From Azoarcus sp. (lineage in GTDB: Bacteria; Pseudomonadota; Gammaproteobacteria; Burkholderiales; Rhodocyclaceae): a stretch of DNA of 36,904 nt. A model generated the notes under the pieces. It was not told where the DNA came from and did not search any database. It saw only the letters and a program-made list of their open reading frames with translations. The position numbers and the translations under genes were made by a program. How positions within the stretch are numbered: the stretch's first letter is position 1; the number at the start of each line of letters is the position of its first letter. The stretch is taken from the NCBI GenBank assembly GCA_031258965.1, contig JAIRMC010000014.1:1-36904 (forward strand), written 5' to 3'. Below are positions 7,731 to 25,804 of the stretch, one piece after another.

Positions 7731-8046
7731 TGAAGCTTTCACCGCAACCGCACTGGTTTTTGGCGTTGGGGTTGTCGAACCTGAAACCCTCGTTGAGTCC
7801 TTCGCGCACGTAGTCCAGTACGGTGCCGTCGAGGTAGATGAGGCTTTTCTGGTCGACGACGACCTTGACGCCGTGACTGTCGAAAATGGTGTCGCCGTCT
7901 ATGGTTTCGTCGACGAACTCCAGTTTGTAGGCCATGCCCGAGCAGCCGGATGTTTTTACGCCCAGGCGGATGCCAAGCCCCTTGCCACGTTTGCCGATGA
8001 AACCAGCGACGTGTCTGGCGGCGCGTTCGGTCAGGGTGACGCTCAT
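7723..8046 (-). CDS. iscA: A-type Fe-S scaffold/carrier IscA
   Basis: A 107-residue A-type carrier that passes Fe-S clusters or iron to target proteins. The three ligand cysteines are present: C35 in SGCSGM and C99/C101 in the terminal CGCGESF motif. It overlaps hscB by eight bases and follows iscU by one base, so it is inside the operon. The context separates it from the related ErpA. Confidence 0.95.
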
Positions 8047-8047
8047 T

Positions 8048-8434
8048 TCACTGTTCTCCGTGTTTTTTCCTGTAATCGGCCACCGCGGCGCGAATGGCGT
8101 CCTCCGCCAGCACCGAGCAATGGATTTTTACCGGCGGCAACGCCAGTTCTTCGGCGATCTGGGAATTTTTGATGGACAACGCCTCGTCGAGCGTCTTGCC
8201 CTTGACCCATTCGGTGACGAGCGACGAGGAGGCGATCGCCGATCCGCAGCCGTAGGTCTTGAAACGCGCATCCTCGATCACGCCATCCTTGCCGACTTTG
8301 ATCTGGAGCTTCATCACGTCGCCGCAGGCGGGCGCGCCGACCATGCCGGTAGCCACGCCTTCTTCATCCTGCCCGAATGAGCCGGCGTTGCGCGGGTTTT
8401 CGTAGTGATCCAGAACTTCGTTGCTGTAGGTCAT
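8048..8434 (-). CDS. iscU: Fe-S cluster scaffold IscU
   Basis: The scaffold on which [2Fe-2S] clusters are built from IscS-derived sulfur. The 128 residues have ligands C37 and C63, H105 and C106, the stabilising D39, and the HscA-recognition motif LPPVKIHC at 99-106. The ATG at 8434 ([16 protein letters not shown]) is the normal start; the open frame extends 50 codons further upstream only as overlap with the iscS 3' end. A GGAGAACA-type ribosome binding site lies in front. Confidence 0.97.
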
Positions 8435-8498
8435 GCTGTGTTCTCCTGTCAAACCATGCCGGACGATAGTCTGCTGGCGGTTTTTTGTCTGGCGGATT

Positions 8499-9710
8499 TT
8501 ACCGGGCCGACCATTGCACGGTGGCGGGATCGATACCTGCCTGTACCATCTCCCACAAGGGCGAGAGGTCGCGCAGTTTGGCAACTTTGGCTTTCAGCAG
8601 TTCGACGGCGTAATCGGTTTCTTCGGCGGTGGTGAAGCGGCCAAGGGTGAAGCGGATCGAGCTGTGGGCCAATTCGTCCTCTCGCCCGAGCGCGCGCAGC
8701 ACGTAGGAGGGTTCCAGGCTGGCGGATGTGCAGGCCGAACCCGAGGATACCGCGATGTCCTTGATCGCCATCATCAGCGATTCGCCTTCGACGTAGGCAA
8801 AGGAAACGTTGAGATTATGCGCGACCCGGTGTTCCAGATCGCCATTGACATAGGTTGCCTCGATGCCGGAGATGCCCGCGAGCAGGCGGTCGCGCAGGGC
8901 GCGGATGCGCGGCAGTTCATCCGCCATTTCCTCGCGCGCGAGGCGGAAGGCTTCGCCCATGCCGACGATTTGGTGCGTCGGCAGGGTGCCTGAGCGCAGG
9001 CCGCGCTCGTGGCCGCCGCCGTGCACCTGCGCTTCCAGCCTGGCCCGCGGCTTGCGGCGCACGTAAAGCGCGCCAATGCCCTTGGGGCCGTAGGTTTTGT
9101 GCGCGGAAAAGCTCATCAAGTCGACAGGCAGGTTTTTCAGGTCGATGGCGACTTTGCCGGTGGCCTGCGCCGCGTCGACGTGGAAGACGATGCCCTTTTC
9201 GCGGCAAATGGCGCCGATTTCCTTGATGGGCTGGATCACGCCGATTTCGTTATTGACCAGCATCACCGACACCACGCTGGTATCCGGGCGCAACGCGGCG
9301 CGTAGCACGTCGAGATCGACGAGACCGTTTTCCCGCACGTCGAGATAGGTTGCGGCGTAGCCCTCGCGTTCGAGTTCGCGCACGGTGTCGAGCACGGCCT
9401 TGTGCTCGGTCTTGACCGTGACGACGTGCCGCCCCTTGTCCCGGTAAAAATGCGCCGCGCCCTTGATGGCGAGGTTGTCCGACTCGGTTGCGCCGGAAGT
9501 CCAGATGATCTCCCGAGGCTCGGCGCCGACCAGCGCCGCGACGTTCTCGCGCGCTTCTTCCACCGCCGCCTCCGCTTCCCAGCCGAAAGCGTGAGAGCGG
9601 CTCGCCGGATTGCCGAAGCGTTCGGTAAGCCAGGGAATCATCGCCTGCGTCACCCTCGGGTCGACCGGGGTGGTCGCGGAGTAATCCAGGTAGATAGGGA
9701 GTTTCAGCAT
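8499..9710 (-). CDS. iscS: Cysteine desulfurase IscS
   Basis: PLP enzyme that takes sulfur from cysteine as a persulfide and gives it to IscU and other acceptors. The 403-residue protein has the PLP lysine K205 (SAHK), H103, and the mobile-loop cysteine C327 in [10 protein letters not shown] typical of group I desulfurases. The C-terminus (SPLWEMVQ) fits IscS, which binds IscU there. The start at 9710 ([15 protein letters not shown]) matches family members; the frame stays open for 23 codons upstream but that overlaps the previous gene's end. Preceded by a second desulfurase gene. Confidence 0.96.
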
Positions 9711-15205: not shown

Positions 15206-16555
15206 TCAGTCGGTTTCCAGCAAGGCGTTGATGGCGCGCACCTCGTCTTCGCCCAGTGCGCCGACAGCGGCCTTCAAGCGTAGCTGGGCAAGCACTGTGT
15301 CATATCTTGCGCGTGAAAGCTGTTGCAGGGTGTCGGCAAGTTGGCTTTGTGCGTTGAGCACGTCGATGTTGATCCGCACGCCGACCTTGTAGCCCAGGCG
15401 GTTGGCTTCGAGCGCCGAGGTCGACGAGATTTGCGCCGCTTCCAGTGCGCGCACCTGGGCCATGCCGCTGGTGACGCCAAGATAGGCTTCACGCGCTGTC
15501 AGCGCGGCGGCGCGGCGGGCTTCTTCGAGGTCGGCGTCGGCTTTGATCTTGAGTGCCGCCGCTTCGCGCGTGCGCGACAGAACAGAGCCTCCTTGATAAA
15601 GCGGCATGTCGAATTGCAATCCCACGGCGCGGCTTTTGTTATGCTCGGCTGTCATCGACGGGTTGTTGCTGCGGCTGATGTTTGCTACCAGATCAAGGGT
15701 GGGCAGATGCCCAGCGCGCTGGCGTTCGAGAGTTCGCACTGCGATTTCGCGTATCAGGGCTTGCCCCTGTACGCCGAGGTCATTTTTCTCGGCGGCATCT
15801 TCCCAGGCGGAGATGTCGGCGGGGTCTGGGTCGGAAAGCGCCACGCCGGGTTTGAGTCCCGCCAGGCGTTCAGGGGAATGGCCGATGATGCGGGCGAGCG
15901 TTTCGTGTGCCACGTCAAGCGTATTGTGGGCGGCAATCTCCTGGGCCGAAGCCAAGTCGAAACGCGATTGTGCTTCGTGCACGTCGGTGACTGTCACCGT
16001 GCCTACCTGGAAGCTGGCGCGCGCCAGTTCGAGTTGTTCGCCCGCCGCAGTGCGCAACTGCGTGATGGCGCCAAGCGAGTCCCGGGCATTGAGCACGTTG
16101 AAATAGGCTTCCGCCGTGCGCAGGATCAACGCCTGGGTTTCTTGGGCGAAAATACTTTCGGCCAGCTCCGTTTGCAGCGCGCTTTCCTGATATTGACGCC
16201 AGTTCTGGGGCCGGAAAAGCGGGGCGGTGAGTTGCAGGGCGTAACTTTCGCTGTTGTAGCGTTTATCGGTTTTTTGGCCGTACAAATCCTGGATTTCGTT
16301 GTCGTTCCGGTTCGCGCCCGCGCTTGCCGCGATGACTGGCAACAGGCCGCTGCGACCTTGGACGACTTTTTCCTGGTCGGCTACGTATTGCGCGCGCGCG
16401 GCGGCGTAGCGGGCGTCATTGGCGAGGGCGTCGAGATAGACCTGGAACAGGTCGGCGGCGCTCGCCATGCCTGCCGTCAGCGCGAGAACGGCAGCTAGTG
16501 CGATATGTTTGGGAAAGCGCTGGCATACGGACAAGCCGGGAAAATGGATGTTCAT
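15206..16555 (-). CDS. tolC: TolC-family outer membrane efflux/secretion channel
   Basis: Outer-membrane and periplasmic tunnel protein used by drug efflux pumps and type I secretion. The 449 residues start with a signal peptide (hydrophobic core AALALTAG region, cleavage after ASA near residue 34) and contain two OEP repeats with the typical AYFNVLNARD and APLF segments, and the second repeat with MPLYQGGSV and GYKVGVRINIDVLNAQ. Length is normal for TolC. It follows pcm by 15 bases on the same strand, a common betaproteobacterial pairing. No inner-membrane pump partner is nearby. Confidence 0.93.
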   Translation of the reverse strand: MNIHFPGLSVCQRFPKHIALAAVLALTAGMASAADLFQVYLDALANDARYAAARAQYVADQEKVVQGRSGLLPVIAASAGANRNDNEIQDLYGQKTDKRYNSESYALQLTAPLFRPQNWRQYQESALQTELAESIFAQETQALILRTAEAYFNVLNARDSLGAITQLRTAAGEQLELARASFQVGTVTVTDVHEAQSRFDLASAQEIAAHNTLDVAHETLARIIGHSPERLAGLKPGVALSDPDPADISAWEDAAEKNDLGVQGQALIREIAVRTLERQRAGHLPTLDLVANISRSNNPSMTAEHNKSRAVGLQFDMPLYQGGSVLSRTREAAALKIKADADLEEARRAAALTAREAYLGVTSGMAQVRALEAAQISSTSALEANRLGYKVGVRINIDVLNAQSQLADTLQQLSRARYDTVLAQLRLKAAVGALGEDEVRAINALLETD

Positions 16556-16570
16556 TGGGGGATGCTCTCT

Positions 16571-17224
16571 TCAGAGAAGGAATTCGCCCGTGCGGGGCGC
16601 GTGGCGCAGCATGGGCACTTGTGTTTCAAACAGATCGCGGCATTGGGTCTGTTTTTCGTTTTTCCGTACGATCAGGCGGGCTTTCATGGTTGGCGCTTCG
16701 CCAACGAAGGCGAACAGCCGCCCGCCGGGTTTGAGTTGCGCCAATAGCGCACCGGGCAGCTCGGGCAGGCAGCCGGAGACCACGATCACGTCGTACGGCG
16801 CTTGTGCGAACCAGCCTTGCGCGCCATCGCCTTCTTCCACGATGACGTTTGCCATGCCGTTACGGGCGAAATTGCCGCGCGCCAGTTGTGCCAGCTCAGG
16901 TTCGATTTCGACTGTGTATACTTTTTTTGAGAATGAAGCCAGCAACGCGGCGAAGTAGCCGCTGCCCGTGCCGATTTCCAGCGCCGATCTGGCGCGCTTC
17001 GTTCCGAGTGCTTGCAGGATGCGCCCTTCAATGGCAGGTCTGAGCATTGTTTGTCCATGGGACAGCGGCATCTCAATGTCGGCAAAAGCCAGGCTGCGCA
17101 GGGAAGGCGGTACGTAGTCTTCGCGCTGCGTCGTCATCAGCAGTTGACACACTTTCGGGGCCGTCACATCCCATGGACGAATCTGCTGTTCGACCATGTT
17201 GAAACGCGCACGCTCAAAATCCAT
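16571..17224 (-). CDS. pcm: Protein-L-isoaspartate O-methyltransferase
   Basis: SAM-dependent repair methyltransferase for isoaspartyl residues in damaged proteins, or a family member. The 217 residues include the N-terminal helix with NMVEQQIRPWDV, the substrate region MPLSHGQTMLRP (52-63) and the SAM motif ALEIGTGSGYFAALLA (81-96). In this TolC-linked subfamily the usual serine-rich active loop is replaced by LSHGQ; true isoaspartyl activity is therefore not certain. ATG at 17224 has a GGAGGGAA ribosome binding site. Likely co-transcribed with tolC. Confidence 0.88.
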   Translation of the reverse strand: MDFERARFNMVEQQIRPWDVTAPKVCQLLMTTQREDYVPPSLRSLAFADIEMPLSHGQTMLRPAIEGRILQALGTKRARSALEIGTGSGYFAALLASFSKKVYTVEIEPELAQLARGNFARNGMANVIVEEGDGAQGWFAQAPYDVIVVSGCLPELPGALLAQLKPGGRLFAFVGEAPTMKARLIVRKNEKQTQCRDLFETQVPMLRHAPRTGEFLL

Positions 17225-17374
17225 TATTCCCTCCAGTAGCATAAGAACCATCGTGGTGGTTGTGCTTTATGTATTGACAGAGTGATTCTATGAGATTTTT
17301 GCCGTGACGTCACCTTACTGTGCTCAATACGTGACGTGCGATTAATTTTCTTCGGCCATGGTTCGTGGGAGAGT

Positions 17375-19273
17375 TCAGGTCACGGTCGGCCCGGCGAGGC
17401 CGTCGAAACCGAGATCGGCGAGAATCGCTTGCTGTTCAGGGCGGTCGATACCTTCCGCGATGGCGATCAGGCCGAGGGTATGAGCAAGCATGACGAGGCT
17501 GCGAACAAAAGCCTGATTACCTTTGTTGTCGTCGATGTCGCGCAAAAGAGACATGTCGACTTTGAGGTAGTCAAGGCCAAGATCGTGCAGATCGCCCAGA
17601 GCGGAAAAGCGCGGCCCGGCGTGCTTGATGCCAAGCTTGCAGTCGAAAGGTTTGACCGTCAGGCAGAAGGCGTGGAAAGCGTCGGCGTCGTGTACCGCGC
17701 TTTCTTCGGGAATTTCCATCCACAGGCGTTGAACCAGATCAGGTGCGTTGCGCAGCAGGGCGATCAGTCCGGTAACGAAGCGTCCGTCCTGGAGAGCCTG
17801 CGCCGAAATGGTGATGGCCACCGGCGTTTCGCTGTGCCGGATGTGTTCGAGCGCGCTGGCGGCCACGGACTGGTTCAGATGTCCAATCAGTCCGAGCCGG
17901 GCGGCCCATGGCAGGAAATCGCCGGATTTGATGATGCCATCGTCCGTGCCCAGATCGACCTGCGCTTCGTTGTGGATCAACTCGCCAGCGATGGTGCGCA
18001 CCGGGAATGTTTCGAAACGAAGCCCGTTCCGGGCCAGCGCCTTTGTTAGTATCTCGCGCCATTGTTCCTGCGCGCGCGCAGGCCGGGCAGCGTCGGCGCG
18101 TTCTTCGATCTTCAGGGCGCGGTCGCCTTCCAGCTCGGCTTCGGCCAGGGCTGTGTCGAGATGGGCCAGGATGGCGGCCACGGTATCGCCGCGGGAGTAC
18201 GGCACGGCGGCCATGGGCATGGCAAGAATGGCGCCGTTTACATGACTGTCGGCGGCGGCATGGACGCGCCCGGCGACGGCAGCCGCCCATGGCGCGAGTT
18301 CGCTGGCGGGAGCGAGCAGGACGAAATCGCTGCCGTTGAGACGGCCGCCGATCTGGTCAGCCTCGCCCTCGCTTCCGAGCGCCCCGGCCAACGCGCGCAG
18401 CAATTTGTCGGTGCCGATCCGGCCAAGATCGCGGTTGAGTTCGTTGAGATTGCGCACGCGCAAAATGAGCAGCGCGCCTTGTCCAGAAGTGTCCGGGCCG
18501 GACAGCCGGGCGGAGAAAGCATTGAGGAACTGGCGGCGTTCGAGCAACCCCGTGACGGCGTCTTCTTGAACCTGGCGGCGCAGGTTTTCGAGCCGTTGCG
18601 CCTCGTCGGCGAGCATTTGCCTGACACGTTCGGAGAGCGCGTTCATGGCGCGCACGACCACCTTGAGTTCGGCGGTTCGGGGTTCCTGCGTAGTGATGAA
18701 ACGGCGCTCGCCAATTGCCTGGGCATGGTTGACAAGCGTGCGCAAGGGCGCGGTGATCCGGCCCAGCAAGAAACTGCCCAAGATCCCGGCCAGACCGGCG
18801 GTGATGCAAAACCACGACAACAATTGGCGGGTGTTGTTCCAGAGCGCCGCGTAGACATAACCGGTATGGCTTTCCACGGTAAGCGTGCCGAACTGACGCC
18901 AACCGTCCTGCACATGGGCGATTCCCGGATGCTCTGCGATCGACGCCAGTCTCACGAACCAGTCGGGCACGCCCTCGACATGGGGGTCGGCGTGAAAATC
19001 GACGATCACCCCGCCATCGGGGTTGACGAGGCGAATCGAACGATAATACCCGGTATCGAATTGCGAGGCGAGCTGCAATTCGATGGTGACTGGGTCCTTG
19101 TCGCGCTGTGACGACAAGGACAATGCCAAGGCCGTAGCATTGTCGGAATTCTTGATGTTGAGCTGCTGTTCAAGGTATTGGCGCGCGGTCAGCGTGCTCA
19201 CGACCAGGCTGCCGCCAAGGGCAAGCAGCGTGACTGCCACGATAGCGATCCAGAGTTGCTTAATCAGGGACAT
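17375..19273 (-). CDS. lapD: LapD-type cyclic di-GMP receptor (degenerate GGDEF and EAL domains)
   Basis: Inner-membrane receptor that, when bound to cyclic di-GMP, holds the periplasmic protease LapG away from a surface adhesin. The 632 residues show a first TM (7-28), periplasmic LapD/MoxY domain (about 30-150) with a DGW loop at W125, the position known to contact LapG in Pseudomonas, a second TM (151-171), HAMP (172-225), a GGDEF domain (238-395) and an EAL domain (405-632). The GGDEF motif is NGSDF (313-317) and EAL reads NEAQ (435-438), so neither cyclase nor phosphodiesterase activity is expected. The terminal GFDGLAGP also fits LapD. It lies 60 bases after lapG. Confidence 0.93.
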   Translation of the reverse strand: MSLIKQLWIAIVAVTLLALGGSLVVSTLTARQYLEQQLNIKNSDNATALALSLSSQRDKDPVTIELQLASQFDTGYYRSIRLVNPDGGVIVDFHADPHVEGVPDWFVRLASIAEHPGIAHVQDGWRQFGTLTVESHTGYVYAALWNNTRQLLSWFCITAGLAGILGSFLLGRITAPLRTLVNHAQAIGERRFITTQEPRTAELKVVVRAMNALSERVRQMLADEAQRLENLRRQVQEDAVTGLLERRQFLNAFSARLSGPDTSGQGALLILRVRNLNELNRDLGRIGTDKLLRALAGALGSEGEADQIGGRLNGSDFVLLAPASELAPWAAAVAGRVHAAADSHVNGAILAMPMAAVPYSRGDTVAAILAHLDTALAEAELEGDRALKIEERADAARPARAQEQWREILTKALARNGLRFETFPVRTIAGELIHNEAQVDLGTDDGIIKSGDFLPWAARLGLIGHLNQSVAASALEHIRHSETPVAITISAQALQDGRFVTGLIALLRNAPDLVQRLWMEIPEESAVHDADAFHAFCLTVKPFDCKLGIKHAGPRFSALGDLHDLGLDYLKVDMSLLRDIDDNKGNQAFVRSLVMLAHTLGLIAIAEGIDRPEQQAILADLGFDGLAGPTVT

Positions 19274-19333
19274 AGCCGAGCCTTTCGGAAAATGCTGAAA
19301 ACGGGCGGAACAAGGGAGGAGACAGGCGGTTTG

Positions 19334-20308
19334 TCATTGTCTGCGCGCTTTCCGTAACGAAAACCTGGATTTTGTTGCTTTTTTTGTCTTGGATTTTGCC
19401 ATTTTCGACACAGGTCGTGACTTGGCCGCTTTCTTGGCAAGCCGGGATGAAGCGGCCTTGCGCGCCAACGACCTGTATTTACCCTTGCCCGCCTTTTGCG
19501 AAGCAAGCGAAGACCGCGACTTTGCCCGCTTCCACGACAGGATTGATTGGGCGCTGAGCGTTGCCAAGGACGGATCCCATCCCTCCTGGCGCATGCGCTG
19601 AAGCACATCGCGCCAGCGCGACAGTCGCGCCGTGGGGCTGGAAGAAGCTGTTTTTTCCCCCTCCATCCAGAGTCCTTCGTGGTTGAAGCTGAACACGGGG
19701 AAAAGGTCGGGGCGCTGCTTTGCCGGGTGAATCCGGCGGACCAGATTATCCAGCACCAGCGGTTCGGATGTCGGCGTTTCGTAATAGCTCAATACCATGT
19801 GAGCCTGGAGCGCCTTGCCACCCCCGCCGTCCAGGCGCGCACGCGCGTAAACGAGGCGCAGCTTCTGCACGGGAATATCCAGCAGGCGCAAGGTGACATA
19901 CTTGGCAATGGCGAAGTCCTCGCAATCGCCTGCCTGCTTGCCGAAAAGTTCCAGTGGCGTGGCCCAGTAATCCACCTGTTTCCAGATAACGATGTCGCTT
20001 TCGTAAAAGACGCGCCGGTTGACGAAATCGTTGGCGCGTTCAAGTTTTGCGCGGTCAGGCAGTGTGCGGGAGTCTTCGATCATGCTGCGCCATGCCCGGA
20101 TCGTATCGACGGCAACTTTGCCATATTGCGTTTCGGCCAGTTGTTCCATGCGGGCGAAATCAGTGCGCGCTTCGGCCAATCCCGCCATGCAGACGCAAAC
20201 GATGGCAACAAGCCGCCCTGGCCACGCTACCCGCAAGGAAGGTAGAAGGCGCGAGACGCGAGCAGGCGCATGCCAGGCCCGCTCCAGGATGGCGGTCGTT
20301 ATGGACAC
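19334..20308 (-). CDS. lapG: LapG-type periplasmic cysteine protease with basic C-terminal tail
   Basis: Transglutaminase-like (BTLCP) calcium-dependent protease that releases a LapA-type adhesin when cyclic di-GMP falls. The triad is C129 (GDCEDFA), H170 (LQAHMVL) and D187 (LVLDNLV). A hydrophobic export segment at residues 30-46 ends near AEA. Start is a GTG at 20308; no good ribosome binding site is seen, so the exact start is uncertain. The enzyme domain ends near residue 255. Residues 259-324 form a Lys/Arg/Ser/Ala-rich tail (for example AKKAAKSRP, KSKTKKATKSR) not expected in LapG, whose usual length is about 230-250. Operon with lapD. Confidence 0.92.
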   Translation of the reverse strand: MSITTAILERAWHAPARVSRLLPSLRVAWPGRLVAIVCVCMAGLAEARTDFARMEQLAETQYGKVAVDTIRAWRSMIEDSRTLPDRAKLERANDFVNRRVFYESDIVIWKQVDYWATPLELFGKQAGDCEDFAIAKYVTLRLLDIPVQKLRLVYARARLDGGGGKALQAHMVLSYYETPTSEPLVLDNLVRRIHPAKQRPDLFPVFSFNHEGLWMEGEKTASSSPTARLSRWRDVLQRMRQEGWDPSLATLSAQSILSWKRAKSRSSLASQKAGKGKYRSLARKAASSRLAKKAAKSRPVSKMAKSKTKKATKSRFSLRKARRQ

Positions 20309-20677
20309 TTTTCGGAGGAATGACGGTAAGCTGGCGCTATGATGTTTACCCGTAAGAGAGCGGGGTGAGCATGAAATACTTCACGGTATAGACACAAATT
20401 ATATTGCGCAGACGCGGATCTGGGGCCACGCTTACAAATGTATGCGGACGGATTTCATGCGGGCAAATTGCGTTACCGGGCTGATTCGCGGGGGTGTCTC
20501 GGGCGATTCGCGGAAGCGTTCCGGGTAAAAAATAAAGCGGTCAGTGTTGTTTTTAGGCCAGACTAGTTGTCGGCGCGATTGTTGTAGACTCATGAAACTC
20601 CATAATATAAACTGTCGTCCAAGTCAGCATTGTGGACAATGCACGTTGAGTGCTTACAACTCTTGGAGATAGCCACC
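20309..20677. other. Divergent intergenic region between lapG and the lapE-like gene
   Basis: 369 bases that should hold promoters in both directions. Toward the lapE-like gene a weak promoter candidate is TTGTTG at 20579-20584 with CATAAT at 20601-20606 (16-base spacer). The stretch is more AT-rich than the flanking genes around 20515-20625. I see no riboswitch or RNA gene that I can name. A mini-ORF of 11 codons at 20320 has a GGAGG site but no other support. Confidence 0.5.
20627..20642. promoter_or_regulatory. Perfect palindrome upstream of the lapE-like gene
   Basis: GCATTGTGGACAATGC, seven-base arms around GG, about 21-25 bases downstream of the candidate -10 and 36 bases before the ATG at 20678. 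It has the form of a dimeric regulator's operator or a short leader hairpin. The binding protein is unknown. Confidence 0.4.
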
Positions 20678-22162
20678 ATGAGCAGGATCAAGACGCTGGT
20701 TTGTTTAGCGGTAGCCGCTACCCTACAAACGGTACCGAGTATCACGGGCGCGCAAGCGCCTGCCGAGCCTTTCAGGGGCGGCGCCCTGCTGGATGCCGTG
20801 CGCAAGGCGGTGGTCAGCAATCCCGATGTGCAGGCGGCTTGGCATGGATACCATGCCGCGACCGCCGCGCAGGACGCCGCGCGTGGCGGCTACCTGCCGG
20901 AGGTCGACCTGAATGCTTCGGCGGGGCACCGCTGGCGCAGGGATCCCACTATCATGTGGGACGGCAAGAAGTCCGACGACTGGAATTATTCCGACGCCGC
21001 GTTGGAACTCAACCAGTTGATCTACGACGGCTTTGCCACGAGCAGCGAAGTCAGCCGCATGGGCTATCAACGGCTCGTGCGCTATTACGAGTTGTTGGAC
21101 GCTTCAGAAAACGCCGGTCTTGAAGTCACGCGCGCCTATGGCGATGTCGAACGCCAGCGCGAGCTGGTTGAACATGCCAAGGCGAACTACGCCGCCCACA
21201 AGCAGCTTTACGATCAGATCAACAATCGCACCACGGCTGGCGTGAGCCGCCGGGTAGACCTCGATCAGGCGGCCGGGCGTCTGGCGCTGGCTGAATCCAA
21301 TCTCCTGACCGAAGTTTCCAATCTGCACGATGTTAGCGCACGCTATCAGCGTCTCGTTGGCGAACTGCCGACTGACCGATTGCCTCCGTTGGCGGACAAC
21401 TTTGCCAATGCGCCCTTGCCCGAAAACGTCGTCGCGGCCTTGCGCACGGCGTATGTGAGCAATCCTTCTTTCAATGCCGCAATCGAGAACGTACGTGCGA
21501 ACCTGTCCAAACGCGACGTGGCACGCGCCGCTTACCATCCCAAGCTCAATCTGCACGCGAGCACCGGAGTCAATCGCAACATCGACAACGGTAAGGACAG
21601 CCTCAGGGGAAACCGGCGTGAAAGCCTCGTTGAAGTGTTGTTTTCCTTCAACATCTTCCGTGGCGGCGCCGATCAGGCCCGTGTTCGCCAGGCGGGCGAG
21701 GAAGTAAACCAGGCCAGGGATTTGCGTGAAAAAGCCTGCCGTGACTTGCGCCAAACCCTGACCATCGCTTATCAGGACGCCCGCAGTCTGGTCGAGAAGC
21801 TCGGCTATCTTGATCTGCACCAATCGTCGACCGCCAAGGCGCGCGAAGCCTACCGCCGCCAGTTCGACATCGGTCAGCGTACCCTGCTCGACCTGCTCGA
21901 CAGCGAAAACGAGTATTTCAATGCCCGCCGCGCCTATACCAATGCGCGCTTCGACCTGCTGGTCGCGCAAGCCCGCACCCTGGCCGGAACCGGACAACTC
22001 CTGCATACCCTTGGTGTCGTGCGCGAAGACTTGCCGACGGCGCGGGATGCCGGGCAGGATCGTGAAACCGTCGATCCCGCAGAGTTGTGTCCAGCCGACG
22101 CGCCTGCCCCGCTCGAAGTCAACAAGAGCGCCTTGCTCACTACCGAGGCTGCGTACAGGTAA
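20678..22162 (+). CDS. TolC-family type I secretion outer membrane protein (LapE-like)
   Basis: Outer-membrane channel, 494 residues, of the subgroup used by type I secretion of large adhesins. A signal peptide (residues 1-27, ending GAQA) is followed by GGALLDAVRKAVVSNPDVQAAW, typical of agglutination-protein/LapE channels, and the two OEP repeats with LNQLIYDG and FNIFRGGADQARVR, GQRTLLDLLDSENEYFNARR. ATG at 20678 (MSRIKTLVC) has a TTGGAGA ribosome binding site. Divergent from lapG-lapD, so a role in exporting the Lap adhesin is inferred. The inner-membrane partners LapB and LapC are not in the window. Confidence 0.88.
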   Translation: MSRIKTLVCLAVAATLQTVPSITGAQAPAEPFRGGALLDAVRKAVVSNPDVQAAWHGYHAATAAQDAARGGYLPEVDLNASAGHRWRRDPTIMWDGKKSDDWNYSDAALELNQLIYDGFATSSEVSRMGYQRLVRYYELLDASENAGLEVTRAYGDVERQRELVEHAKANYAAHKQLYDQINNRTTAGVSRRVDLDQAAGRLALAESNLLTEVSNLHDVSARYQRLVGELPTDRLPPLADNFANAPLPENVVAALRTAYVSNPSFNAAIENVRANLSKRDVARAAYHPKLNLHASTGVNRNIDNGKDSLRGNRRESLVEVLFSFNIFRGGADQARVRQAGEEVNQARDLREKACRDLRQTLTIAYQDARSLVEKLGYLDLHQSSTAKAREAYRRQFDIGQRTLLDLLDSENEYFNARRAYTNARFDLLVAQARTLAGTGQLLHTLGVVREDLPTARDAGQDRETVDPAELCPADAPAPLEVNKSALLTTEAAYR

Positions 22163-22196
22163 GGCATTGAATCTCGCGCATTGCGCGGCCTTGTAC

Positions 22197-22231
22197 AAAA
22201 ATGGCGCAACTGTTCCGGTTGCGCCATTTTT
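22197..22231 (+). terminator. Rho-independent terminator after the lapE-like gene
   Basis: A perfect 14-base-pair stem, AAAAATGGCGCAAC paired with GTTGCGCCATTTTT, with a seven-base loop (22211-22217), ending in a T run. It lies 35 bases after the lapE-like stop. The flanking A and T runs make it usable in either direction, though the only convergent-free reading is for the upstream gene. Confidence 0.9.
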
Positions 22232-22369: not shown

Positions 22370-25300
22370 ATGACGGAAAATCCCGCGCCGCAACGGGTGG
22401 TCGCGGTGCGGCGCGATTACAACACCTGGGTAGCCAATGAAACGCTGGAAGACTACGCGCTCAGATTCACCCCGCGCAGCTTTCGCAAACTCTCCGAATT
22501 CCGTGTCGTCAATACGGCCTTTGGCGGCGCGGCCTCGTTCTTGGTACTGGAAGCCGTGGGCGCGACCATGCTGCTCGGCTACGGCTTCATCAACAGTCTG
22601 TGGGCGATCCTCGCCGTTGGGTTGCTCATCTTTCTTGCCGGGCTGCCGATCAGCTTGTATGCCGCACGCTATGGGGTGGATATGGATCTGCTCACCCGCG
22701 GCTCGGGCTTTGGCTATCTCGGCTCGACCCTGAGTTCGTTGGTTTATGCCTCCTTCACCTTCATCTTCTTCGCCCTCGAAGCGGCGATCATGGCCTACGC
22801 GCTGGAAATGGCGCTCGGCATCCCGCCAGCCTGGGGCTATCTGATTTGTGCGCTGGCAGTCATCCCGCTGGTCATGCACGGCATCACAGCGATCAGCCGC
22901 CTGCAAACCCTGACTCAGCCGTTGTGGCTCTTCCTGCTCGCGCTACCGTTTTTCTTCGTGCTTGCCCATGATCCCAGCACGCTTTCCGGTCTGTGGCATT
23001 ACCCCGGCGTGGCCGGACAGGGCGGTGCATTCGATTGGCGCCTGTTTGCCGGGGCGATGACGGTGGGCATCGCCCTGATGACACAGATGGGCGAACAGGC
23101 CGACTATCTGCGATTCATGCCACCGCGCACGGCGCGGAACCGTTGGCGCTGGCTGTTCGGCGTCGTGCTCGGCGGCCCCGGTTGGGTGCTGATCGGCGCG
23201 GCCAAGATGATTGGCGGCGCGTTGTTGGCGTGGATGCTTTTGGAATCCGGCGCGCCGCCGGAAAAAGCCATTGATCCTAGTCAGATGTACCTGCTGGGCT
23301 TTTCCGGCGGCATCGGCAACCTGAGCGTGGCGGTCGCCGTGACGGCGCTTTTCGTCGTTGTCTCCCAACTCAAGATCAACGTCACCAACGCCTACGCCGG
23401 GTCGCTGGCCTGGTCGAATTTCTTCTCCCGCCTCACCCACAGCCACCCCGGGCGCGTGGTTTGGGTCGTCTTCAACGCCCTGATTGCCCTGCTGCTCATG
23501 GAAATGGACGTGTTCCAGATACTGGGGCAAGTGCTGGGGCTATATTCCAACGTAGCCATCTCCTGGATGATGACCGTAGTGGCTGACCTCGTCATCAACA
23601 AACCGCTGGGCCTTTCACCGCCGGGCATCGAATTCAAGCGCGCCTACCTGTACGACATCAACCCCGTGGGCGTGGGCGCGATGCTGATTGCCTCGGCGCT
23701 CTCGGTCGCGGTATTCGCCGGGCTGTTCGGCACAGCGATCCAGCCCTTCGCTCCTTTCGTCGCGCTCGTGACTGCCTTGCTCGTCTCGCCGTTGATCGCC
23801 TGGATCACCGGTGGACGCTACTACCTTGCCCGTCCGTCCGAAACAGGCGCGGACTGCGGCGGAAAAAGCGGCGACACTGGAGAAAACGCCAGCAGCGAAC
23901 CCCGTCAATGCAGCATCTGCGGCCAATATTTCGAATCGGAAGACATTTGCCACTGCCCAGCCTATCAGGGCGCGGTCTGCTCGCTATGTTGCTCGCTCGA
24001 CGCACGCTGCGACGACCTGTGCAAACCACATGCCCGCCTGGCAGCCCAATGCTCGGCGCTTCTGGACCGCTGGCTGCCCACGCGGCTGCGCCGCCTACTG
24101 AGCGCGGGGCTTGGACAGTATCTCCTCCTGATGTCCAGCGTCGCCGCGATACTGGCGCTGGTGCTGGGTACGCTCCACTATCACGAAATCTCCGCTGGAG
24201 CGCCCGCCGGACGGCTCGATGCGGTACTGCTGCGAGTATTCATCGTTCTCATGCTGCTCTCCGGCATCGGTGCGTGGTGGATGGTGCTCACCCACAAAAG
24301 CCGCCAAGTCGCGCAAGAAGAATCGAACCGCCAGACGCGGCTGCTGATGCAGGAAATCGAATCGCACCGCCGCACCGACCTGCAACTGCAAAACGCCCGC
24401 CGCGCCGCCGAACATGCCAACCAGGCCAAGAGCCGCTACGTCACCTCGATCAGCCACGAACTGCGCACACCGCTCAACAGCCTCCTCGGCTACGCGCAGA
24501 TTCTCGACGGCGACGAAACCATTCCCCCGCATCGGCGCGCGGCGGTCGGCGTCATCAAAAAAAGCGGCGAACACCTGCTCTCGCTCATCGAAGACACCCT
24601 CGATATCGCCCGCATCGAAAGTGGCCGCTTCACTCTCGACATCCGCCCGCTCGCCTTTCCGGCCTTCATTCAACAACTCACTGGCATGTTCGAGCTGCAA
24701 GCGCGCGACAAAGGGCTGGATTTCCACTTCGACCTCGACGGCGCGCTGCCCGCTGTCGTGCGCGCCGACGAAAAACGCCTGCGCCAAATACTGATAAACA
24801 TCATCGGCAATGCCGTGAAATACACCCCCTCGGGCGCCATCCGCGCGCGCCTGACCTACCGGCGCGAAATGGCCCTTTTCGAGATCGCCGACAGTGGGCC
24901 GGGCATCTCGCCCGAAGACATCGCCCTCATCTTCGAGCCATTCGCCCGTGGCGGCGCGCGCATGGGCACCATCGGCACGGGACTAGGCCTCACCATTAGC
25001 CGCATGCTCACCGACATGATGGGGGGCGACCTCACTGTCGAAAGTCGCATCGGCGAAGGCAGCACCTTCCACGTGCGTCTTTTCCTGCCCCAACTGCATG
25101 GTGCGCAAGCCGATAGCGCCTTCCCCAAAGCGCGCCGGATCGGCTATCGCGGCGTGCGCCAGCGCATCCTCACCGTAGACAACGAACGCATCGACCGCGA
25201 ACTCCTGCGCAACCTGCTCGAACCGCTTGGGTTCGAGATCGGCGAAGCCGCTTCGGGCGAAGAGTGCCTCGCCATGGCGGGAGCCTTCCAGCCGCACCTC

Positions 25301-25804
25301 GTCTTCATGGATCTCGCCATGCCCGGCATCGACGGCTGGGAAACCATCCGGCGGCTACGGGCGGCGGGCTTTGGCCAGACGCCGCTGGCGGTCATCTCCG
25401 CCAATGCCTTTGACAAAGGGCTGGATCACGACGTCGAACTCCCTGCGGAAGACTTCATCCTCAAGCCGGTTCGTTTCGATGACCTGCTCGACTGGATCGG
25501 CCGCCGCCTGCGGCTCGAATGGGTCTGGGCCGAAACCCCCGCCCCCGGACAGACGCAGCTCCCCTCCGTCATGCCCGCGCCGAGAACGCCCCCGATGTAT
25601 CTACCGTCGCCGGAAATCCTGCGCGCACTCGAAGAGGTCATCGACCTCGGCTTTGTGCGCGGCATCCACGCCCGCCTCGACGAAATCGAAGCCCTTGATC
25701 TTCGCCACGGCGAATTCGTCCGCGTCCAGCGCGGCCTCCTCCGGCAATTCCAGTTCGATGCCATGCGCGCCCTGCTGCACCGGGAAGAATCTCCCGCGCC
25801 GTGA
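22370..25804 (+). CDS. NCS1-like permease / cysteine-rich module / hybrid histidine kinase with receiver domain
   Basis: A 1144-residue membrane sensor. Residues 45-482 form about twelve transmembrane helices resembling purine-cytosine permeases, with YGVDMDLLTRGSGFGYLGS (101-119) and GEQADYLRFMPP (241-252). Residues 496-561 hold a cysteine-rich module (C514, C517, C527, C529, C537, C540, C541, C547, C551, then H554 and C561), a probable metal-binding site. Two more TMs follow (about 581-603 and 616-640), then a coiled coil, HisKA with H696 in SHELRTP, HATPase with N814 and DSGPGIS/GTGLGL, and a receiver with D981 and K1032. The C-terminal 70 residues are unassigned. By analogy with CbrA (SLC5 transporter plus kinase) it may sense or import a solute and signal; the ligand is unknown. 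The ATG at 22370 was chosen because upstream sequence overlaps the terminator. Confidence 0.9.
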   Translation: MTENPAPQRVVAVRRDYNTWVANETLEDYALRFTPRSFRKLSEFRVVNTAFGGAASFLVLEAVGATMLLGYGFINSLWAILAVGLLIFLAGLPISLYAARYGVDMDLLTRGSGFGYLGSTLSSLVYASFTFIFFALEAAIMAYALEMALGIPPAWGYLICALAVIPLVMHGITAISRLQTLTQPLWLFLLALPFFFVLAHDPSTLSGLWHYPGVAGQGGAFDWRLFAGAMTVGIALMTQMGEQADYLRFMPPRTARNRWRWLFGVVLGGPGWVLIGAAKMIGGALLAWMLLESGAPPEKAIDPSQMYLLGFSGGIGNLSVAVAVTALFVVVSQLKINVTNAYAGSLAWSNFFSRLTHSHPGRVVWVVFNALIALLLMEMDVFQILGQVLGLYSNVAISWMMTVVADLVINKPLGLSPPGIEFKRAYLYDINPVGVGAMLIASALSVAVFAGLFGTAIQPFAPFVALVTALLVSPLIAWITGGRYYLARPSETGADCGGKSGDTGENASSEPRQCSICGQYFESEDICHCPAYQGAVCSLCCSLDARCDDLCKPHARLAAQCSALLDRWLPTRLRRLLSAGLGQYLLLMSSVAAILALVLGTLHYHEISAGAPAGRLDAVLLRVFIVLMLLSGIGAWWMVLTHKSRQVAQEESNRQTRLLMQEIESHRRTDLQLQNARRAAEHANQAKSRYVTSISHELRTPLNSLLGYAQILDGDETIPPHRRAAVGVIKKSGEHLLSLIEDTLDIARIESGRFTLDIRPLAFPAFIQQLTGMFELQARDKGLDFHFDLDGALPAVVRADEKRLRQILINIIGNAVKYTPSGAIRARLTYRREMALFEIADSGPGISPEDIALIFEPFARGGARMGTIGTGLGLTISRMLTDMMGGDLTVESRIGEGSTFHVRLFLPQLHGAQADSAFPKARRIGYRGVRQRILTVDNERIDRELLRNLLEPLGFEIGEAASGEECLAMAGAFQPHLVFMDLAMPGIDGWETIRRLRAAGFGQTPLAVISANAFDKGLDHDVELPAEDFILKPVRFDDLLDWIGRRLRLEWVWAETPAPGQTQLPSVMPAPRTPPMYLPSPEILRALEEVIDLGFVRGIHARLDEIEALDLRHGEFVRVQRGLLRQFQFDAMRALLHREESPAP

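Follow-up and report, generated by a model that had tools for sequence, protein, structure and literature searches.

A permease-headed hybrid histidine kinase of Azoarcus related to NCS1 transporters and associated with urea genes

What signal is read by a histidine kinase whose input domain resembles a membrane permease? The question is raised by a gene in a stretch of 36,904 nucleotides from an Azoarcus sp. genome (contig JAIRMC010000014.1 of assembly GCA_031258965.1; hereafter the window). At 22370..25804 on the + strand it encodes a single protein of 1144 residues, in which an NCS1-related permease head is followed by an eight-cysteine module, two transmembrane (TM) helices, a HisKA-HATPase_c kinase, a receiver and a C-terminal helical module. 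The genomic context of its orthologues makes it probable that the protein is a urea-responsive transceptor kinase which controls the uptake and breakdown of urea, the ligand being suggested by that context.

Architecture and distribution of the fusion protein

The gene is one intact frame from ATG to stop (1144 codons plus stop). A TTG at 22181 offers an alternative upstream start for the same frame, but as strong conservation among the orthologues begins at residues 8-14, the ATG at 22370 fits as the start. A Pfam scan assigned HisKA to residues 686-752, HATPase_c to 800-906 and Response_reg to 933-1041, leaving residues 1-680 unmatched. An AlphaFold2 model of residues 1-680, built from a 22-sequence alignment (predicted local distance difference test score, pLDDT, 76.3; predicted template modelling score, pTM, 0.75), shows, with the helices read by eye, a LeuT-type bundle of 12 TM helices, a beta-beta-alpha cysteine module and two further helices.

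Conservation was assessed in an alignment of 97 rows (95 distinct, as L031 and L033 duplicate L072 and L073), comprising the window's protein, 16 from the G genomes and the best 80 of at least 565 relatives found in a scan of named genomes; these best 80, a selection which favours the kinase form, all carry head plus kinase. A preliminary description of this DNA had proposed the single frame and its domain order, and had named a frameshift or assembly join between 23.8 and 24.1 kb among the findings that would refute it. Such an event is excluded because all 97 rows share the junction, and with orthologues in related genomes an assembly chimera or frameshift as the origin of the fusion is rejected; the architecture is borne out by the frame, by Pfam and by the orthologues alike. 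The hinted rarity of the architecture is not. The best 80 relatives include Azoarcus, Parazoarcus, Azonexus, Zoogloea, Variovorax, Hydrogenophaga, Acidovorax, Ramlibacter and others, and full-length matches among 60 related genomes occur in six further congeners plus several other genera. The protein was found in 36 of 200 genomes of the order, 16 of 274 taken from the class and 46 of 349 in a sample of the phylum (a few of the latter matches being partial or weak); each tally counts the window's own genome, and the three samples overlap in part. All full-length matches in the order sample lie in frames of more than 1100 residues, that is, with an output part, while one further match is partial.

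Relationship of the head to NCS1 transporters

The 12-TM sensor head (residues 1-490; 22370..23839, +) had been described as an NCS1-like transporter, a claim which family models did not support but profile-profile and fold comparisons did. Pfam Transp_cyt_pur (PF02133) gave no match at E<=1 in the 1144-residue protein, nor at E<=10 in 23 heads; the best 25 of 151 families in an NCBIfam scan of the protein are all kinase or signalling models, with no transporter; and PDB sequences searched with the head profile (hmmsearch) yielded no match. In contrast, a single hhalign comparison of the head profile with ten NCS1 proteins gave E 3.5e-17 over 389 columns, and a fold search with the head returned Mhp1 and CodB as top matches. 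The head also matches a free-standing PF02133 permease at locus L278 (E 1.4e-33, 29%), whose gene, at 7784-9439 of that locus, immediately precedes one for a CN_hydrolase (nitrilase-type). By Pfam alone the first 480 residues would thus match no transporter family, and searches of Pfam, NCBIfam and PDB sequences on their own would wrongly refute the transporter reading; the head is a divergent relative of NCS1, below Pfam detection. The SSF family, the SLC5 transporter domain of the sensor kinase CbrA, has no Pfam match in the protein, and an hhalign control of the head against 15 SSF proteins gave E 0.1 and probability 0.6, in agreement with the earlier view that the transporter family differs from that of CbrA.

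The head is more conserved than the signalling part, with a mean majority share of 0.82 (residues 12-488) versus 0.75 for the kinase (686-906) and 0.69 for the receiver. At least 97% conservation is seen at 177 of 477 head positions, many of them polar; E61, Q179, Q239, E242, Q243, K279, K335, N337 and N340 are retained in all 97 rows and E137 in 96. A place in TM3 which is Trp in nine of the ten NCS1 sequences is Phe (87 of 97 rows) or Leu in the kinase heads, and a TM6 place which is aromatic in four of the ten aligns with Leu236 or a gap. These two places are presumably those which stack nucleobases in Mhp1. The heads carry Glu at the TM3 +4 place, which does not exclude an NCS1 ligand, since one of the ten NCS1 sequences (L160) has Glu there as well.

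Linkage to urea genes and to a response regulator

The neighbourhoods of the orthologues connect the kinase to urea. Among the 80 named loci, urt genes are present in 27, urease genes in 46 and either in 59; for loci of at least 17.9 kb the last count is 43 of 57. With the strictest markers (UrtA, UreB/C/E/G) the figures become 58/80 and 42/57. NCBIfam names UrtA-D, UreB, UreC, UreE and UreG on representatives, while the UreF reference has no NCBIfam match and its omission alters no urease count. In other classes of the phylum the association is tighter, as UrtA lies upstream of the kinase on the opposite strand in 18 of 19 loci, at 0.7 kb or less in 16 of the 18; in the sole miss, L265, the contig ends 375 bases upstream. 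Out of 25 matched genomes outside the class, this set includes 19, plus one free-standing permease; G683, G685, G708, G720, G736 and G746 were left out (four weak, partial or short-frame matches and two full ones). Its counts of 19 and 18 are unchanged between lower score limits and those used for the named loci. Of 15 additional loci, most of them from the class, eight have urea genes. As a control, urt or urease genes were found in none of 20 regions of about 18 kb around other hybrid-kinase matches in 12 urease-bearing genomes.

Co-occurrence between genomes points in the same direction. In 21 genomes of the genus, urease alpha is present in 7/7 genomes with the kinase and 0/14 others (Fisher 8.6e-6), and UrtA in 6/7 versus 1/14 (Fisher 8.5e-4), both tests ignoring ancestry and genome incompleteness. 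Over 60 genomes, 15 of 16 with the kinase have urease above the cut-off versus 11 of 44 others, G024 being counted as kinase-positive (a contig-end fragment) and urease-negative (pieces under the cut-off). Two types of UrtA, about 38-43% identical to each other, adjoin the kinase in different lineages (L043, L046 and others), and both pass the NCBIfam urea cut-off in many genomes.

A gene for a REC-LuxR protein is an even more regular neighbour. It is present in 74 of the 80 named loci, always on the strand of the kinase, and in 73 of these at most 200 bases from the end of the kinase frame. Three of the six loci without it stop at most 75 bases past the frame and L139 has 301 bases, so that L072 and L096 remain. 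In seven such neighbours Pfam identified the receiver in all and GerE in six (L034 is cut by a contig end). The regulator is likewise found in 19/19 loci of other classes and in 11 of the extra 15; the matches in G002 and in G031 each include one internal TGA. By gene position the REC-LuxR protein is the cognate response regulator of the kinase. In the window's genome its orthologue is unlinked, at G000:C23:5379-6278, with both domains present and 72% identity to that of G027, and urease and UrtA also lie on other contigs.

Coupling, phosphotransfer and alternative outputs

Between head and kinase lies the cysteine module (residues 514-551; 23909..24022, +), with the pattern CxxC-x11-C-x7-CxxCC-x5-CxxxC and possibly two zinc sites. 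The nine cysteines announced by the preliminary description are at 514, 517, 527, 529, 537, 540, 541, 547 and 551, and all except C527 are invariant in the 97 rows; the eight-cysteine pattern recurs in 36/36 further loci (29 by a first pattern and seven by a looser one). In conservation the module matches the head (mean majority share 0.84 versus 0.82), and, judging from the topology, it would be cytosolic. The simplest reading is that of a structural zinc module with two sites at the membrane face, although the cysteines might also sense metal or redox state. Regarding the zinc site suggested earlier, the predicted models do show a beta-beta-alpha module, while the fold matches are weak: Foldseek with the module alone gave E 0.29 at best, with many RING/PHD/FYVE fingers, and Pfam gave weak matches only among 95 members and none in the window's protein. 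The two additional TM helices foreseen after the module (residues about 580-645; 24107..24304, +) are seen in the model as helices 580-608 and 613-679, the second of which runs on toward the kinase as a signalling helix.

The claim of a complete kinase pair and receiver in the same chain stands. HisKA (24425..24625, +; Pfam 4.3e-17) carries the phospho-acceptor H696 (codon 24455-24457), and HATPase_c (24767..25087, +; 1.2e-27) carries N814 and D841, all three in 97/97 rows. The receiver (25166..25492, +; 4.5e-20) has D981 in 95 rows and K1032 in 94, the gaps belonging to L040 and L148, which have no receiver, and to L126 at a contig end; S1010 is also present in the window's protein. The phosphotransfer residues are accordingly in place, except that the acidic pair is D937-N938 and not Asp-Asp (at position 938, 90 rows have Asn, five have Asp and two a gap). 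As L040 (by Pfam) and L148 (by alignment) have no built-in receiver and yet keep the neighbouring REC-LuxR gene, this receiver seems optional and probably tunes or buffers the signal. The C-terminal helical module (residues about 1079-1136; 25604..25777, +) is the least conserved part by column counts. An Hpt role for it is rejected, with no Pfam Hpt match and no conserved His in the 97 rows. A segment resembling it was seen by eye in kinase-less paralogues, where tblastn at 1e-10 did not detect it.

The head is also joined to other outputs: PAS-HK-REC-Hpt (L219), HK-REC-REC-Hpt (L220), PAS-PAS-HK-REC (L227), the kinase alone (L228) and, in L226:4852-8526 (G196), PAS-GGDEF-EAL, a cyclic di-GMP version; the 18 kb fetched for this locus contain no urea genes. 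Three genomes of the genus, the window's own included, encode a kinase-less paralogue of 1100-1110 residues (L047:7551-10880 at G000:C53, L048, L049) which continues in one frame into a REC-LuxR stretch, 35-36% identical to the normal partner regulator and with its LuxR-type helix-turn-helix below the Pfam cut-off; such a chain would be a membrane-tethered response regulator. The paralogues L050 and L051 end ahead of the receiver, and L224:9593-11443 encodes a free-standing head plus cysteine module (617 residues, no output domain), a second copy divergent from the full kinase copy. A head-like frame of 504 residues at L053:9282-10793 (G001), 34% identical, is possibly a copy in decay: it has neither cysteine module nor kinase, and several conserved motifs are absent. 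In a 36-row head tree (few rows, midpoint root) the forms with other outputs than HK-REC fall into two groups, and outputs therefore changed at least twice. In the stretches fetched, no urea gene was found beside these or the kinase-less forms, which may therefore have another ligand. The cysteine module is kept in the versions with other outputs.

A proposed urea-responsive kinase and its alternatives

In the proposed mechanism, external or periplasmic urea would bind the central pocket of the NCS1 fold, in a head that senses rather than transports, and the resulting motion would reach the HisKA dimer by way of the cysteine module and the additional pair of helices. Phosphorylation of H696 would follow, with transfer of the phosphate to the separate REC-LuxR regulator, which in turn would switch on urtABCDE and/or the urease genes. 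Several observations weigh against this proposal. The window itself holds neither the regulator nor a urea gene, and its link to urea rests on relatives and on the presence of these genes elsewhere in the genome. Neither urt nor urease genes were found in 14 of the 57 well-flanked named loci, in 7 of the 15 extra loci (among which L226-L228 do not have the usual HK-REC form) or near L219 and L220. The control regions stem from genomes other than those of the named loci, and the co-occurrence statistics take no account of common descent. Urease does not require the kinase, as the 11 urease-bearing genomes among the 44 without it demonstrate; G004 (78% complete) has kinase and urease but no UrtA was found in it, and G014 has UrtA without the kinase. 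Finally, linkage does not tell whether the signal is urea, ammonium, nickel or the nitrogen status.

The alternative to be taken most seriously, though unlikely, is that the protein actually transports and the kinase reads this turnover, as argued for CbrA, or that the protein carries urea itself. The strong conservation of the head is in line with this, as is the existence of the kinase-less copies L050, L051 and L224, and the SLC5 part of CbrA can take up histidine (PMC13022988). Yet a dedicated urea ABC transporter usually adjoins the kinase in the other classes, and the full-length matches of the order sample all come with an output part, although transport is compatible with both.

A general nitrogen-limitation sensor, responding to ammonium or an amide, is improbable. 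The urt and urease genes are nitrogen-scavenging genes, which in Azoarcus olearius are induced under nitrogen fixation (PMC8467165), and the L278 relative adjoins a CN_hydrolase gene. However, the linkage observed is to urea genes, in an analysis in which no search was made for glutamine, nitrate or ammonium genes.

The preliminary description implied purines, pyrimidines and hydantoins as ligands, and a head that senses nucleobases, hydantoins or allantoin could target the urea genes given that purine breakdown yields urea as an end product. In favour of this are the NCS1 homology and fold, with a hydantoin and a cytosine transporter (Mhp1 and CodB) as the closest solved structures, and the TM3 +4 Glu shared with L160. 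Such ligands are nevertheless unsupported, because neighbourhood and co-occurrence point to urea: urt and urease are the genes seen in linkage (no search was made for purine-catabolism genes), and the two presumed nucleobase-stacking places are altered in the heads. This explanation is distinctly improbable.

Least probable is that the cysteine module is the true sensor, of nickel, zinc or redox state, and the permease fold a mere anchor: the invariance of its eight cysteines and a conservation like that of the head are in its favour, and nickel sensing would suit a urease regulator because urease needs nickel, but so many near-invariant and often polar head positions are unexpected for an anchor, the spacing of the cysteines, four plus four, has a structural look (weak as the fold matches are) and the module is retained in versions with other outputs.

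Genomic setting in the window

Upstream of the kinase gene, a terminator-like hairpin (22197..22231, +; a 16-pair stem with a T tail) follows an OEP/TolC gene at 20630-22159, and the kinase gene therefore probably has its own promoter, separate from that gene, although a promoter scan upstream of it found none. The OEP/TolC gene was considered and rejected as a functional partner, as the two are paired, among 25 loci, only in the window and three congeners, and the hairpin stands between them. A second OEP/TolC gene lies at 15209-16555, a LapD-like protein (LapD_MoxY_N, EAL, GGDEF and a sub-threshold HAMP) is encoded at 17378-19273, and a Peptidase_C93 protease, which we take to be LapG by name, at 19337-20308. 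Together, the genes at 15209-22162 look like a LapD/LapG adhesin-release set.

Comparison with known systems and significance

Fusions of transporter and kinase are already known. In the SLC5-STAC kinases CbrA, CrbS and RpuS (PMC13022988, PMC9100948, PMC5715377), one chain runs from a transporter fold of the LeuT type through a small adaptor in the cytosol to a histidine kinase, with nutrient-linked targets, and CrbS is a hybrid kinase like the protein studied here. This protein differs from them in its NCS1-related head, in the eight-cysteine module and two TM helices which couple head to kinase in place of the four-helix STAC (for which the Pfam scan, in a library whose inclusion of a STAC model is unconfirmed, gave no match) and in its apparent targets, the urea genes. 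What is new is thus the transporter family, the coupling module and the apparent signal. Compared with the NCS1 permeases (PF02133; Mhp1, CodB), similarity in fold and profile extends over nearly the whole domain, while the head differs in being undetected by Pfam, in its fusion to signalling domains and in the replaced TM3 Trp. From other hybrid histidine kinases with a LuxR-type regulator, with which it shares HisKA-HATPase_c-REC and a neighbouring REC-GerE protein, it is set apart by the input domain and by a C-terminal helical module without an Hpt match. AmtE of Azoarcus olearius also joins a transporter fold to signalling (GGDEF/EAL), comparable to the PAS-GGDEF-EAL version of L226, but its head is an ammonium transporter and its signal another (PMC8467165).

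No NCS1-kinase fusion or urea-linked kinase of this kind, nor any characterised protein with this domain order, is described in the literature searched, which leaves most subscription journals outside its coverage; this agrees with the preliminary description. The passages of PMC11109136, PMC1183210 and PMC3164672 that match the search terms contain nothing on NCS1 or urea kinases. It is quite possible, though we would put it forward only tentatively, that the NCS1 fold and the eight-cysteine module form a portable urea/amide receptor head, an NCS1 counterpart of SLC5-STAC combined with hybrid kinases, PAS-GGDEF-EAL, multi-receiver/Hpt relays and REC-LuxR. With the cysteines as the common coupling part, a whole class of bacterial urea receptors would then be hidden behind a Pfam blind spot.

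The use of urea by bacteria is important for nitrogen in soils, for urease activity and for the loss of fertiliser. Bacterial urea receptors other than a Helicobacter chemoreceptor are not known to us, nor is any urea-sensing kinase. If the proposed function is true, a testable urea sensor would be present in the 46 genomes noted above among the 349 sampled from the phylum. It would also constitute a second, independent case of a LeuT-type transporter fold turned into a kinase input, and a comparison with CbrA can therefore show how kinases read transporter motions.

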